Source: Amycolatopsis deserti
GTDB taxonomy: Bacteria > Actinomycetota > Actinomycetes > Mycobacteriales > Pseudonocardiaceae
NCBI RefSeq assembly: GCF_014653945.1
Contig: NZ_BNAU01000001.1
Location: forward strand, 1,674,001-1,738,000
Direction: 5' to 3'
Length of the DNA stretch: 64,000 bases
Below the pieces are notes generated by a model. That model searched no databases. It was not told the origin of the DNA and was given only the letters and a program-made list of their open reading frames with translations. Of this stretch, positions 44,029-49,477 are shown piece after piece (positions within the stretch are counted from its first letter, which is position 1; each line of letters begins with the position of its first letter). A program made the translations under genes and the position numbers.

Positions 44029-44394
44029 ATGTCCGATTTGCGCAGGCTGAGCCTGGACGAACCCGAAGAGGTCCGGCCGTTCGAGGACGGCTCCGGGCAG
44101 ATGGAGCTGGTGAACCTGGCGGGCGGCGCGGTCGGCCGCGGCACGTTCCACCCCGGCTGGCAGTGGTCGAAGCACATCAAGCCGATCGCGGGCACGGACA
44201 GCTGCCAGGCGAACCACATGGGCTACGTGCTGTCCGGCCGGATGACGGTCCGCATGGACGACGGCGACCAGGCCGACTTCGGTCCCGGGGACGTCCTGAT
44301 CTGCCCACCCGGCCACGACGCCTGGGTGGTCGGCGAGGAGCCCTGCGTGGTGATCGACTGGGGCGGCTACGCCGACTACGCCAAGCGGAGCTAG
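44029..44394 (+). CDS. Small cupin-domain protein
   Basis: The 121-residue single-domain cupin has HPGWQWSKHIKPIAGTDSCQ, NHMGYVLSGRMTVRMDDGDQ and GPGDVLICPPGHDAWVVGEEP, giving the two cupin motifs with His at ligand positions. This type is common in Actinobacteria with no known substrate. ATG 44029 has GAGGAGG seven bases upstream. It is divergent from xylF, and its last 4 bases overlap the convergent peptidase gene. Confidence 0.8.
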   Translation: MSDLRRLSLDEPEEVRPFEDGSGQMELVNLAGGAVGRGTFHPGWQWSKHIKPIAGTDSCQANHMGYVLSGRMTVRMDDGDQADFGPGDVLICPPGHDAWVVGEEPCVVIDWGGYADYAKRS

Positions 44395-45632
44395 CCCAGC
44401 CAGGCGGCGAAATCGTCGCAGAGTGGCACACCCGCCACGCGCTCGGCGTGCGCGATGAACTCCTCCGTCGTCACGGTGCCGTGCGCGTGCTCGGCCACCC
44501 ACGACCGCAGCAGGCCGAAGAACACCTCATCCCCCACGCGGGCGCGCAGCTCGTGCAGGACCAGCGCCCCGCGCTTGTACACCTGCTCGTCGAACAGGTG
44601 CGCCACCCCGGGGTCGCCGATCGCGACGTCGGTGCCCACGCGGGACCGCCAGTCGCGTGCCAGGGCCTCCGCGGACGCGCCCCCGGCGGCTTCCGACCAC
44701 AGCCACTCCGCGTAGGTCGCGAAGCCCTCGTTGAGCCAGATGTGCCGCCAATCCGCGACGGTGAGGCTGTTGCCGAACCACTGGTGCGCCAGCTCGTGCA
44801 CCACCAGCCGCTCGAACGTGCGGCGCCCGTCCACGTGGTTGGCGCCGAAGATCGCCATCCCCTGCGCCTCGATCGGGTCGTCCAGGTCGTCGTCGGTGAC
44901 CACCACGACGTACTCGCCGAACGGGTACGGCCCGAACCACTCGCTCAGCGCCCGCATCATCTCCGGCTGGCGGCCGAAGTCGTGCGCGGCCGCCGCCCGC
45001 AGCCGTCGCGGCACCCCGAGTCGTTGCGCAGCACCGAGTTCCAGCTCGTCGTACCGTCCGATCTGGACACTCATCAGGTACGGCGCGGTCGGCTCGCGCC
45101 GCTCGAACACCCAGGTCGTCGCGCTGCCCCCGGCCCGCCGGGCGACCAGGTCCCCGGTCACCAGCACCGTGTAGGCCGACGCGGTGGTCAGCGACACCCG
45201 GTAGGACGCCTTGTCGCCGGGCCGGTCGTTGCACGGGAACCAGGACGGCGCCCCGGTCGGCTGGCTCGCCACGAGCGCGCCGTCGGTCAGCTCGTCCCAC
45301 CCGATCTCGCCCCACCGGCTCGCGACCGGACGCGGGTTGCCGGCGTAGCGCACCTCGATCGTGAACTCCCCGCGCACCGGCCGGGCCGGCCGGACGACGA
45401 GCTTGCCGCCGCGGTGGGTGAACTTCGCGGTCCGCCCGTCGACGCGCACGCCCTTGACCGCGAACCCGGCCAGGTCGAGCGGGATCCGGTCCAGCTCCTC
45501 AGCAGCGACCGCGGACAGGGCCGCCCGCGCGCTCAGCCGGTTCGGCCCGATCTTGTAGTCCAGCTCCAGGTCGTAGTGCGTGACCCGGTAGCCGGTGCTG
45601 CCGTGGCCGAGCGTGTAGTCGGCGCGGCTCAC
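44391..45632 (-). CDS. M1-type zinc metallopeptidase, candidate polymer-degrading (Pld-like) enzyme
   Basis: The 413-residue gluzincin has HELAHQWFGN (His279, Glu280, His283) and the third ligand Glu302 in WLNEGFATYAEW, the exact HExxH-x18-E spacing. It keeps the N-terminal beta domain (TGYRVTHYDLELDYKIG) and the catalytic domain but lacks the long C-terminal half of PepN (about 850 residues). The GAMEN exopeptidase motif is replaced by PIEAQGMAIFG. There is no signal peptide. GTG 45632 overlaps the stop of the Pls-type synthetase (GTGA), so the two are made together. By family precedent, Pls synthetases are paired with a zinc peptidase (Pld) that degrades the product and protects the producer. 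Confidence 0.85.
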   Translation of the reverse strand: MSRADYTLGHGSTGYRVTHYDLELDYKIGPNRLSARAALSAVAAEELDRIPLDLAGFAVKGVRVDGRTAKFTHRGGKLVVRPARPVRGEFTIEVRYAGNPRPVASRWGEIGWDELTDGALVASQPTGAPSWFPCNDRPGDKASYRVSLTTASAYTVLVTGDLVARRAGGSATTWVFERREPTAPYLMSVQIGRYDELELGAAQRLGVPRRLRAAAAHDFGRQPEMMRALSEWFGPYPFGEYVVVVTDDDLDDPIEAQGMAIFGANHVDGRRTFERLVVHELAHQWFGNSLTVADWRHIWLNEGFATYAEWLWSEAAGGASAEALARDWRSRVGTDVAIGDPGVAHLFDEQVYKRGALVLHELRARVGDEVFFGLLRSWVAEHAHGTVTTEEFIAHAERVAGVPLCDDFAAWLG

Positions 45633-48600
45633 GCCCGCCACGCCGCGATCGGGTTGCCCAGCCAGCGGCTGTCGGCCGGGACGGCGTCGCCGCGGGTCAC
45701 CAGCGAACCCGGGCCCACGGTGGTGCGCGCGCCGATGCTCGCGCCGGGCAGCACGATCCCGTGCGGGCCGACGGTCGCGCCCTCGGCCACGGTCACCTCG
45801 CTCATGCGCATGATCCGATCATGGAACAGGTGGGTCTGCACGACGCAGCCGCGGTTCACGGTCGCGCCGTCGCCGAGGCGCACCAGATCGGTCTCCGGCA
45901 GCCAGTACGTCTCCAGCCACACCCCGCGGCCGATCTTCGCGCCCATCGTGCGCAGCCAGCACGGCAGCAGCGGCGTGCCCGCGCTCCAGCCCACCAGCCA
46001 CGGCACCACGAGTGTCTCGACGAACGTGTCGGCCAGCTCGGTGCGCCACACGAACGAACTCCACAGCGGGTGGTCCACCGCCCGGAACCGCCCGGTCAGC
46101 GCCCACTTCACCGCCGTGGTCACCGCACCGGCCACCAGCCCGGCGACGACCAGCACGACCGGCGCGGCGAGCGCGGCCACGATCAATCCCGCCGCGGACC
46201 ACACGGCCGTCAGCGCGGCGAGCACCAGCACCGCGAGCGCGACCGCGCACATCACCGGCACGATCCGGCACAGCTCGACCGCGGCCCGCGCGGCCTTCAG
46301 GCGCAGCGGCGGCGCGAACGTGCGGCTCTCGTCAGCCGTCTCCACCGCGCGCCGCAGCGGCATCGGCGGCATCCCCAGGTACGACGAGCCCTTCTTCGCC
46401 TTGCGCGGCGCCGACGACAGCACCCCGACCAGCCCGCGCTTGGGCACCGCCCGCCCGGCCGCGGCCATGCCCGAGTTGCCGAGGAACGCCTGCTTGCCGA
46501 TGCGCGTGGGCGCGACGTGCAGCCAGCCGTGCCCGAGTTCGTAGGTGGCGACCATGGTGTCGTCGGCGAGGAACGCGCCGTCGTCGACCTGCGTCATCCG
46601 CGGCACCGCGAGCACCGTGGAGACCTCGGCGCCGCGCCCGACCTTCGCGCCCAGCAGCCGCAGCCACACCGGCGTGAACAGGCTCGCGTACAGCGGGAAC
46701 AGCACCTGGCGGGCCAGGTCCATCAGCCGCTCGGTGGCCCACACCTGCCAGGCGATCCGGCCGTGCACCGGGTGGTAGCCCTCGTGCAGGCCCAGCCCGA
46801 GCAGCCGCACGGACACCAGCACCAGCAGCGCGTAGGTGCCGAACGCCGCCAGGGTCGCCACCGGCACCGCGAGCAGCGCGGCACCGAGGCTCGGCGAATC
46901 CGCGACCGCGGCACCCAGCACGAGCAGGCCGGGCACGGCGGCGAGCACCGGGAACAGGCCCAGCACGAACGACGCCGCGCCGTAGGTGAAGGCCCAGAAC
47001 CGCGACCGCGGCGGCCGGCTGGACGGCCACCGCAGCGCGCCCTTGCCGTCACGGCGGGCGGGCGAACCGGCCCAGCGCTGACCGGCCGGCACCGCGCCCA
47101 GCACGGTCGACCCGGCCGCGATCTCCGCGCCCTTGCCGATCCGCGCCCCGGGCAGCAGCACGCTGCGCGCGCCGACGCGGGCACCGGCGCCGATGCGGAT
47201 CTTGCCGAGGTGCACGACGTCACCGTCCACCCAGTGCCCGGACAGGTCCACCTCGGGCTCCACGGCCGCCCCGCGGCCCAGCTTGAGCAGGCCGGTGACC
47301 GGCGGCGGGGTGTGCAGGTCGACGTCCTTGCCCACCTTCGCACCCAGCGCGCGGGCGTACAGCGTCATCCAGCTCGCGCCGGAGATCCCGGCCGCACCGG
47401 CGGCCTCGGCGAGCCGTTCGGCCGCCCACAGTCGCAAGTGGACCCGCCCGCCGCGCGGGTGGGTGCCCGGGCGGACCCCGCGCAGCAGCAGCCGGGCACC
47501 GCCCGCCGCGATGGCGATGCGGCCCGGCGGGCTGAACAGCACCAGCCACGCCAGGGCGAGCGACCACCACGGCACGGCCGGCGCCCACGCGGCACCGGTC
47601 ATCGAGAGCACAGTGGACAGTGCGGCGAGCGCGGTCAGCCAGCGCAGGCCGGTCAGGGCGAGCACCGGCACGGCCAGCACGGCCTGGACGGCACCGGCCC
47701 GGCGCGACACCGGGCGGACGTCGCGCCGCCGCGCGGTTTCCCCGTCCAGACCGTCGAGCAACCCGGCGAGCTGTCCCAGCTTCGGGTGGCGGTAGAGGTC
47801 GGCGACCGACACCTGCGGATGCCGGGTGCGGATGCGCGCGACCAGCTGCGCCGCGGTGAGGCTCCCACCGCCGGAGGTGAAGAAGTCCGCGGCCGGATCG
47901 GTCACCGGCACACCGAGGATCTCGGCCCAGCCCTCGGCGAGCCACGACTCCGTGGGCGTCAACGCCGCGGCACTGTCCACTGTGGCCAGCGGCCAGGGCA
48001 GGGCGGCGCGGTCGACCTTGCCGGAGGTGCGGGTCGGCAGGTCGTCCACCACCGCGAGCAGCGGCACCAGCGCGGCGGGCAGCTTCCCGCGGAGCAGAGC
48101 CGACGCCGCGGAGGTGTCGAACTCGCCCTGCGGCACCACGTACCCGACGAGAACCTGGTTGCCGGCCTTGGTGGTGCGGATCGCGGCGGCCGCTCCGGCG
48201 ACCCCGGGCAGGGCCTGCAGCGCGGCATCCACCTCGCCCAGCTCGATGCGGCGGCCACCGAGCTTGACCTGCTCGTCGGCGCGGCCCAGGAAGACCAGCC
48301 CCGCGGGCTCGGCACGCACCAGGTCACCGCTGCGGTAGGCGCGCTCCCAGCCCAGCGCGGGCAGCGGCGCGAACTTCTCGGCGTCCTTCACCGGATCGAG
48401 GTAGCGGGCCAGCCCGGCGCCACCGATCACCAGCTCGCCGGACTCCCCCATCGCCACCGGCTCCCCGGCGGGATCGACGACCACGAGGTCCCAGCCGGCC
48501 AGCGGCAGCCCGATCCGCACCGGGCCCGCACCGGTCAGCGGCGCGGCGCAGGCGACGACGGTGGCTTCGGTGGGGCCGTAGGTGTTCCACACCTCGCGGC

Positions 48601-49477
48601 CCTCGACGGCGACCCGCTCGGCCAGCTCCGACGGGCACGCCTCGCCGCCGAAGATCAGCAGCCGCACGTCCTCCAGCGCCTCCGCCGGCCACAGCGCGGC
48701 CAGCGTCGGCACGGTGGACACGATCGTGATGCGCTGCGCGACCAGCCACGGCCCCAGGTCCACCCCGGTGCGCACGAGCGCGCGCGGAGCCGGCACCAGG
48801 CACGCGCCGTGCCGCCAGGCCAGCCACATCTCCTCGCACGAGGCGTCGAAGGCCACCGACAGCCCGGCCAGCACCCGGTCACCCGCGCCGATCGGCTCCT
48901 CGGTGAGGAACAGCCGGGCCTCGGCGTCGACGAAGGCGGCCGCCGAGCCGTGGCTGACCGCGACGCCCTTGGGTTTGCCGGTCGAGCCGGAGGTGAAGAT
49001 GATCCACGCGTCGTCGTCCGGTGTGGGCGGACCGGTGCGGCGGCCGGGCTCGGCGAGCATGGTCAGCCCGTCGTCCATCAGCACCGCGCACACCCCGGCC
49101 TCGCCGAACACCAGCTCGGCGCGCTCGTCCGGGTCGTCGGCGTCGACCGGCACGTACGCCGCGCCCGCGGCGAGCACACCCAGGATCGCGACGTACAAAT
49201 CCGCCGTGCCGGAGGAGATCCGCACGCCGACGCGGTCACCGCGGCCGACGCCCTCGGCGGCCAGCCGACGGCCCAGCGCCTGCGCCTCCTCCGACAGCCT
49301 GCGGTAGCTCAGGACCCGCTCGCCGTCGTCCAGCGCCGCCGCGTTCGGGTGCCGCGCGGCGGTGCCGGCCAGCACGTCGAGCAGCGTGCGCCGGGCCGCG
49401 GCGGGTCCACCCGGGAACAGGGCCCGCTCCGGGGCCAGCACCCCGGGCAGCATCGGATCGAGAACGGGCGCGCCCAT
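45629..49477 (-). CDS. Pls/PosA-type membrane non-ribosomal peptide synthetase
   Basis: The 1282-residue protein is a single-module synthetase. Adenylation domain (about 30-510): IIFTSGSTGKPKG, NTYGPTEATV, YRSGDL, GRADEQVKLGGRRIELGEV, TRTSGKVDRAALP. Carrier domain: FFTSGGGSLTAAQL with phosphopantetheine Ser539. Then come membrane helices framing three tandem soluble domains, each opening with a near-identical motif: ALGAKVGKDVDLHT (about 711), LLGAKVGRGAEVST (about 940), TMGAKIGRGVWLET (about 1178), with hexapeptide-type repeats. There is no condensation or thioesterase domain. This is the architecture of epsilon-poly-L-lysine synthetase (about 1319 residues), which polymerises one amino acid through isopeptide bonds. 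Specificity residues read by eye are D-A-E-S-I-G-T-V-V-K. ATG 49477 follows GGAAGG; GTG 49486 is possible. Confidence 0.88.
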   Translation of the reverse strand: MGAPVLDPMLPGVLAPERALFPGGPAAARRTLLDVLAGTAARHPNAAALDDGERVLSYRRLSEEAQALGRRLAAEGVGRGDRVGVRISSGTADLYVAILGVLAAGAAYVPVDADDPDERAELVFGEAGVCAVLMDDGLTMLAEPGRRTGPPTPDDDAWIIFTSGSTGKPKGVAVSHGSAAAFVDAEARLFLTEEPIGAGDRVLAGLSVAFDASCEEMWLAWRHGACLVPAPRALVRTGVDLGPWLVAQRITIVSTVPTLAALWPAEALEDVRLLIFGGEACPSELAERVAVEGREVWNTYGPTEATVVACAAPLTGAGPVRIGLPLAGWDLVVVDPAGEPVAMGESGELVIGGAGLARYLDPVKDAEKFAPLPALGWERAYRSGDLVRAEPAGLVFLGRADEQVKLGGRRIELGEVDAALQALPGVAGAAAAIRTTKAGNQVLVGYVVPQGEFDTSAASALLRGKLPAALVPLLAVVDDLPTRTSGKVDRAALPWPLATVDSAAALTPTESWLAEGWAEILGVPVTDPAADFFTSGGGSLTAAQLVARIRTRHPQVSVADLYRHPKLGQLAGLLDGLDGETARRRDVRPVSRRAGAVQAVLAVPVLALTGLRWLTALAALSTVLSMTGAAWAPAVPWWSLALAWLVLFSPPGRIAIAAGGARLLLRGVRPGTHPRGGRVHLRLWAAERLAEAAGAAGISGASWMTLYARALGAKVGKDVDLHTPPPVTGLLKLGRGAAVEPEVDLSGHWVDGDVVHLGKIRIGAGARVGARSVLLPGARIGKGAEIAAGSTVLGAVPAGQRWAGSPARRDGKGALRWPSSRPPRSRFWAFTYGAASFVLGLFPVLAAVPGLLVLGAAVADSPSLGAALLAVPVATLAAFGTYALLVLVSVRLLGLGLHEGYHPVHGRIAWQVWATERLMDLARQVLFPLYASLFTPVWLRLLGAKVGRGAEVSTVLAVPRMTQVDDGAFLADDTMVATYELGHGWLHVAPTRIGKQAFLGNSGMAAAGRAVPKRGLVGVLSSAPRKAKKGSSYLGMPPMPLRRAVETADESRTFAPPLRLKAARAAVELCRIVPVMCAVALAVLVLAALTAVWSAAGLIVAALAAPVVLVVAGLVAGAVTTAVKWALTGRFRAVDHPLWSSFVWRTELADTFVETLVVPWLVGWSAGTPLLPCWLRTMGAKIGRGVWLETYWLPETDLVRLGDGATVNRGCVVQTHLFHDRIMRMSEVTVAEGATVGPHGIVLPGASIGARTTVGPGSLVTRGDAVPADSRWLGNPIAAWRA

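Follow-up and report, generated by a model that had tools for sequence, protein, structure and literature searches.

In Streptomyces albulus, the gene of the epsilon-poly-L-lysine synthetase Pls is coupled to a peptidase gene, pldII (PMC9223678), and PldII is reported to be an endo-type enzyme with coupled translation. An operon of a Pls and a peptidase has also been described in Corynebacterium, an arrangement that the other three synthetases do not share, and the C. variabile gene yields epsilon-poly-lysine when expressed in S. coelicolor (PMC8117764). The family defined by the Pls/PosA membrane domain, TIGR02353, also includes synthetases of other products (PMC10522769). Here we describe a gene pair on the minus strand (44391..49477) of a stretch of 64,000 nucleotides from Amycolatopsis deserti (assembly GCF_014653945.1, contig NZ_BNAU01000001.1, positions 1,674,001 to 1,738,000), which we call the window. 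The pair encodes a Pls-like synthetase and a PldII-like M1 zinc peptidase, and is very probably a two-gene operon for epsilon-poly-L-lysine. The present analysis supplies the domain content, the matching pocket, the phylogenetic placement, and the pairing and overlap of the two genes, while the substrate, the isopeptide bond, chain growth and endo-type cleavage are carried over from relatives.

The synthetase gene can be read from ATG 49477 or from an upstream alternative start, GTG 49486, which gives 1285 residues; residue numbers below follow either the ATG count (from 49477) or the GTG count (from 49486). The Met encoded by ATG 49477 aligns with Met2 of the chain in the structure 7WEW. The gene and its domains are as follows:

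45629..49477, minus strand: pls-like synthetase gene, 1282 residues from ATG 49477 (TIGR02353; adenylation-domain match to 7WEW)
48017..49363, minus strand: adenylation (A) domain and its C-terminal subdomain (PF00501, 1.1e-63; PF13193 just below cut-off)
47756..47944, minus strand: carrier (thiolation) domain (PF00550, 1.2e-11), with the Ser539 codon at 47861-47863
45647..47689, minus strand: membrane polymerization domain, with hexapeptide-repeat segments C1-C3 each preceded by a pair of long helices (TIGR02353, AlphaFold2)

The Pfam scan placed AMP-binding at 42-361 (1.1e-63), AMP-binding_C at 418-490 (24.0 bits, slightly below its cut-off of 24.5) and PP-binding at 515-577 (1.2e-11; all in the GTG count), and it returned a Hexapep match (1.3e-13). 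The NCBIfam scan assigned residues 600-1280 to TIGR02353 with 730.5 bits, far above the cut-off of 423.1, and neither scan (Pfam at E <= 0.001) found condensation or thioesterase families in the synthetase. A preliminary description, made from the letters of this DNA, had proposed a Pls-type layout consisting of an A domain, a carrier with Ser539 and no condensation or thioesterase domain. The profile searches bear out this architecture, and Ser539 is correct when counted from ATG 49477 (Ser542 in the GTG count). The three tandem membrane-linked domains that the same description had recognized by their motifs were also located, with LGAKVG occurring twice (714 and 945) and MGAKIG once (1181; GTG count). 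A simple hydropathy scan marked membrane-like stretches at 599-623, 832-900 and 1066-1130 (GTG count), which alone are insufficient for six helices. Residues 580-1282 (ATG count) were modeled with AlphaFold2 (predicted local distance difference test, pLDDT, 92; predicted template-modeling score, pTM, 0.92), and the model has a pair of long helices ahead of each of three strand-rich repeat segments, in agreement with the Pls layout (PMC8117764) and with the published pseudo-threefold model of PosA (PMC10522769). The 50 PDB matches that Foldseek listed for the membrane domain were led by hexapeptide acetyltransferases with partial coverage (top TM-score normalized to query length, 0.15) and included no solved relative of the entire domain.

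For the A domain, the PDB search was led by a wide margin by 7WEW (664.7 bits; runner-up, 334.7 bits), an entry named epsilon-poly-L-lysine synthase, whose protein we take to be from Streptomyces albulus. It is described as the adenylation domain of an epsilon-poly-L-lysine synthetase in PMC10522769. The two A domains are 68.4% identical over 481 columns, their alignment is free of gaps between the FDAS and YGPTE motifs, and the ten-residue pocket code, DAESIGTVVK, is the same in the window synthetase and in 7WEW:

D211 A212 E215 S254 I275 G277 T299 V307 V308 K487 (ATG count), minus strand: pocket residues, from the alignment to 7WEW

Ala at the second pocket position, the chain-length position, is a hallmark of lysine enzymes (PMC10522769). 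The mapping of pocket columns was validated on an Acinetobacter baumannii protein (L122), for which it yields the published PosA code DMEHNGTVSK; D217, M218, E221, H260, N280, T304, V312 and S313 of this protein match the residue numbers published for PosA. The window's code does not match the PosA code. We collected 80 scan loci, which rank highest against the query among the matches listed, a choice that favors close kin, and 34 further loci picked as diverse or as close kin, six of them from the window's own genus. DAESIGTVVK was present in 80/80 scan loci, and the carrier position is Ser in all 80 of these and in 34/34 of the further loci (114/114). For an A-domain tree we used 57 of 116 rows, comprising 7WEW, the window, every third of the scan loci and most later loci (L101, L103 and four with an A domain of <300 residues being omitted). 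The 45 rows with DAESIGTVVK, including the window and 7WEW, the only characterized Pls in the tree, formed a single clade (100/100), whereas 12 rows with other codes fell outside it, the PosA-like row as a long branch. Other codes within the window's bacterial family include DFECLSVVTK, DFEYLGTVTK and DGESVSVVNK. Since the pocket code is the same as that of 7WEW, the predicted product is epsilon-poly-L-lysine, with no sequence sign of a new polymer. The suggestion in the preliminary description that the polymer could be novel is therefore abandoned. That description had also named in advance two sequence-based points on which its proposal should be tested, a phosphopantetheinylation site in the carrier and placement in the Pls group, and neither spoke against it: the serine is present within a PF00550 match, and the A domain lies inside the 7WEW clade. 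As a separate observation, four of the fetched loci (L091, L093, L094 and L097) have frames of 841-977 residues with a carrier serine and a membrane domain and without a readable A domain; these may receive their substrate from a distinct adenylating enzyme.

The second gene of the pair encodes the peptidase:

44391..45632, minus strand: pldII-like gene, two-domain M1 zinc peptidase of 413 residues (PF01433, PF17900, fold match to 6koz_B)
44727..44798, minus strand: HELAH-x18-E zinc site (sequence)

The peptidase matches PF01433 at 7.2e-30, and chance is ruled out for the domain matches of both proteins by their E-values. Its likely start, GTG 45632, shares the four bases GTGA with the synthetase stop codon TGA and gives 413 residues; an alternative start, GTG 45641, gives a 13-base overlap and 416 residues. 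With either start the GTG overlaps the synthetase as first described, and the HExxH-x18-E signature noted at that time is found as HELAH-x18-E. The proposed role of this enzyme as the accompanying degrading peptidase Pld needs correction in part: a peptidase does occupy the place of the degrading enzyme, but the enzyme beside pls is PldII, not Pld (PMC9223678). The model of the window peptidase matched the fold of 6koz_B, the two-domain M1 enzyme of Deinococcus radiodurans, with an E-value of 1.5e-39. In loci titled Streptomyces, the peptidases adjoining the synthetase share 52-58% identity with the window peptidase, and the zinc-site H, E and H and the second E are the same in 94/94 aligned peptidases, the window's included. 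We considered a loss of the M1 amine-binding glutamate and dismissed it, as the alignment to leukotriene A4 hydrolase shows this glutamate retained within x-P-(I/V/L)-E-A; the residue aligned to GXMEN, E255, is present in 94/94. The GXMEN glutamate of M1 enzymes binds the free alpha-amine. Because every residue of epsilon-poly-lysine has a free alpha-amine beside the scissile bond, such an enzyme might act at any point of the polymer, and this would agree with the endo-type cleavage reported.

Two other peptidases came to light in this comparison. The window's genome contains a second short M1 peptidase (L009, G000:C3:364474-365718, minus strand), 39% identical to the first, with an apparent signal-peptide end and one in-frame TAG near its terminus. 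A Pls paralog with the lysine code (L100:5446-6972, minus strand) is accompanied by a peptidase with a twin-arginine, lipoprotein-like N-terminus, unlike that of the window peptidase and nearly all of the 25 N-termini inspected among the 94 peptidases.

We then compared the surroundings of the synthetase genes. All 80 scan loci have an M1 peptidase gene downstream of the synthetase and in the same orientation, or 79/80 under a stricter distance window, which L037 missed by 15 bases. The lysine code occurs in 16 of the 34 further loci, 13 of which also have an adjacent M1 peptidase, in contrast to 0/18 loci with other codes or an unreadable A domain (in one of the 18, L105, there is a weak M1 match on the opposite strand at a distance of 7.7 kb). 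Overall, adjacency is 93/96 for the lysine code versus 0/18 for the others, counts that come from related, mostly similarity-chosen loci and are not independent. The peptidase start overlaps the synthetase or sits <=4 nucleotides from its end in 77/94, when each peptidase is read from the start codon closest to the end of the synthetase gene, a choice that favors overlap. From the gene overlap we infer that synthetase and peptidase are translationally coupled. The pairing counts fit the coupling of pldII to pls in S. albulus (PMC9223678) and the pls-peptidase operon of Corynebacterium (PMC8117764). Two Williamsia loci (L078 and L082) have a gap of ~300-450 bases between synthetase and peptidase, while most other relatives overlap or nearly touch.

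Judged by its sequence, the gene pair is a clear, intact member of the known Pls-PldII system, an ordinary copy of a unit widespread in actinobacteria, and we found no evidence in this analysis that contradicts the Pls family assignment. By analogy, the A domain would activate L-lysine with ATP and load Ser539 of the carrier. The membrane domain would then form an isopeptide bond between lysine and either free lysine or the growing, non-covalently held chain, in line with the freely diffusing acceptor on which the chain is described to grow (PMC9205021). Hydrolysis of the polymer would fall to the coupled M1 peptidase, probably for self-protection or lysine recycling.

Several observations limit this account. 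On the side of the peptidase, PldII activity has been reported on the cell surface (PMC9205021), while a simple hydropathy scan of the window peptidase showed no hydrophobic segment or export signal, and its putative orthology to PldII draws on neighborhood, size and fold. Inactivation of Pld and PldII in S. albulus reportedly left polymer length and yield unchanged (PMC8506220), whereas repression of pldII by CRISPR interference is reported to affect the degree of polymerization (PMC9223678), so that these reports differ on the physiological role of PldII. The pairing has exceptions too, as three lysine-code paralogs of the same bacterial family (L102, L104 and L106; 3/16 outside the scan set), with ~51-52% membrane-domain identity, have no adjacent M1 peptidase; no common neighbor that might substitute for it was seen beside them among frames of >=100 residues with a third-position guanine-cytosine content >0.85. 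As to production, no polymer was detectable in native C. variabile, nor in C. glutamicum carrying its gene (PMC8117764), so that a sound gene alone is no proof of production.

These points bear on the alternatives. It is possible, although we consider it unlikely, that the pair is a silent or housekeeping unit of the core genome with little exported polymer, for example one that yields a small quantity of polycation, with turnover at the membrane or within it, and no antibiotic. Such a unit would suit the position behind der-plsC-cmk in 14/114 loci (Amycolatopsis and one Prauserella), the spread across actinobacterial families with a constant code (80/80 scan loci), the polymer-free native C. 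variabile (PMC8117764) and the lack of an export signal in the simple scan of the peptidase. However, the carrier serine, the pocket and the invariant membrane-domain residues are all intact, and 48/150 genomes of the family have no member above the TIGR02353 cut-off, so that the unit is not universal. In addition, S. albulus yields tens of grams per litre and requires acidic pH for the polymer (PMC9205021), and therefore non-production in ordinary culture means little.

The synthetase might instead make a different or new cationic homopolymer, of ornithine, diaminobutyrate, diaminopropionate, beta-lysine or an unknown residue, given that TIGR02353 holds other products (PMC10522769) and that other codes occur in the same bacterial family. 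Against this, the window's pocket equals that of 7WEW at 10/10 positions, including the lysine-marking Ala at the chain-length position, its A domain falls within the lysine-code clade, and it has the peptidase neighbor that the 18 other fetched members lack. We regard a different homopolymer as very improbable, and the novel-polymer reading was rejected on pocket code, tree and neighborhood. We give equally little credence to the idea that the M1 peptidase is a general aminopeptidase, brought next to the synthetase by chance or operon convenience. Its two-domain M1 fold (6koz) and the GXMEN-aligned E255, kept in 94/94, would be at home in such an enzyme, but a pairing of 93/96 in the lysine-code clade versus 0/18 elsewhere and the overlap or <=4-nucleotide spacing in 77/94 speak against it. 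An operon for making and cleaving epsilon-poly-L-lysine thus remains our preferred interpretation.

The mechanism of polymerization is still little known according to a 2022 review (PMC9205021). We looked for invariant residues, in a first pass among 17 distant loci without L103 and then in a full count of all 114 loci, several of which are just 21-24% identical to the window across the membrane domain. S539, W684, E1147, E1195, Q1214, H1216, D1220 and W1272 are unchanged in 114/114, and three of them share one short stretch of C3:

45818..45838, minus strand: Q1214-T-H1216-L-F-H-D1220 of C3, candidate catalytic site of polymerization (Q, H and D invariant)

The motifs of C1 and C2 matched to this site by eye have histidines that vary. 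These comparisons suggest that C3 carries the catalytic site of polymerization, and its invariant residues provide concrete mutant targets for this step. A 2013 mutational paper by Kito reportedly deals with the three tandem domains, and the C3 residues therefore cannot be called new. A further-reaching view, which we consider improbable, is that the His-Asp of C3 is the sole catalytic center of a pseudo-threefold polymerase and that the pair is a widespread Actinomycetota unit whose polycation has a standing physiological role instead of being an exported antibiotic. Such a role, suggested by the constant lysine pocket, the place beside der and cmk and the peptidase without a visible export signal, may be, for example, to manage charge or lysine at the membrane, the polymer being turned over on its inner face.

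TIGR02353 was above cut-off in 102 of 150 genomes sampled from the bacterial family of the window, a count that includes the genome of the window itself (48/150 without), and in 7/7 sampled genomes of its genus. Loose matches (E <= 0.001) occurred in 144/150 genomes but also in 13/14 controls, one control being above cut-off; only above-cut-off counts are used here because the controls also match loosely. A search for a second synthetase in the window's genome returned one place above cut-off, the window's own. Upstream of the synthetase, on the same strand, lie cmk, an acyltransferase gene (plsC) and der. This setting recurs in 14/114 loci (six of the window's genus, all seven titled Amycolatopsis, and one Prauserella), and it resembles a piece of the core genome more than a large secondary-metabolite cluster. 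The closest named relatives among the matches listed, from which records very near the window may have been omitted, are from Amycolatopsis, with 76-79% identity in the best segment. An open-access literature search for poly-L-lysine synthetase and Amycolatopsis yielded a single paper, which concerns S. albulus. The locus is a further likely epsilon-poly-lysine gene pair outside Streptomyces, of practical interest since the polymer is a food preservative and antimicrobial, and the broad, strict pairing poses the question of the polymer's role in many actinobacteria.

Among known systems, the M1 enzyme of D. radiodurans (6A8Z, 6KOZ) likewise has a two-domain M1 fold that lacks the customary C-terminal domain, but it is ~31% identical to the window peptidase, and we know of no link between it and a polymer synthetase. 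PosA, the delta-poly-L-ornithine synthetase of A. baumannii (PMC10522769), shares family and layout with the window synthetase, and the invariant C3 residues are also present in the PosA-like L122 protein. PosA differs in its pocket, DMEHNGTVSK, and in a membrane-domain identity of 27% to the window, and L122 has no M1 neighbor within the 9.3 kb examined. The C. variabile operon, as published, likewise combines a Pls with a peptidase and has a pocket the same as or highly similar to that of Pls (PMC8117764), although it belongs to a separate actinobacterial lineage; this comparison is with its published description. With S. albulus, the window shares the published order A-T-(TM/C1)-(TM/C2)-(TM/C3) (TM, transmembrane), the same ten-residue pocket, an A domain 68% identical to 7WEW and a coupled downstream peptidase gene; it differs in its shorter peptidase, 413 residues versus 467 in PldII (1404-bp open reading frame, PMC9223678), and in a locus placed behind der-plsC-cmk.

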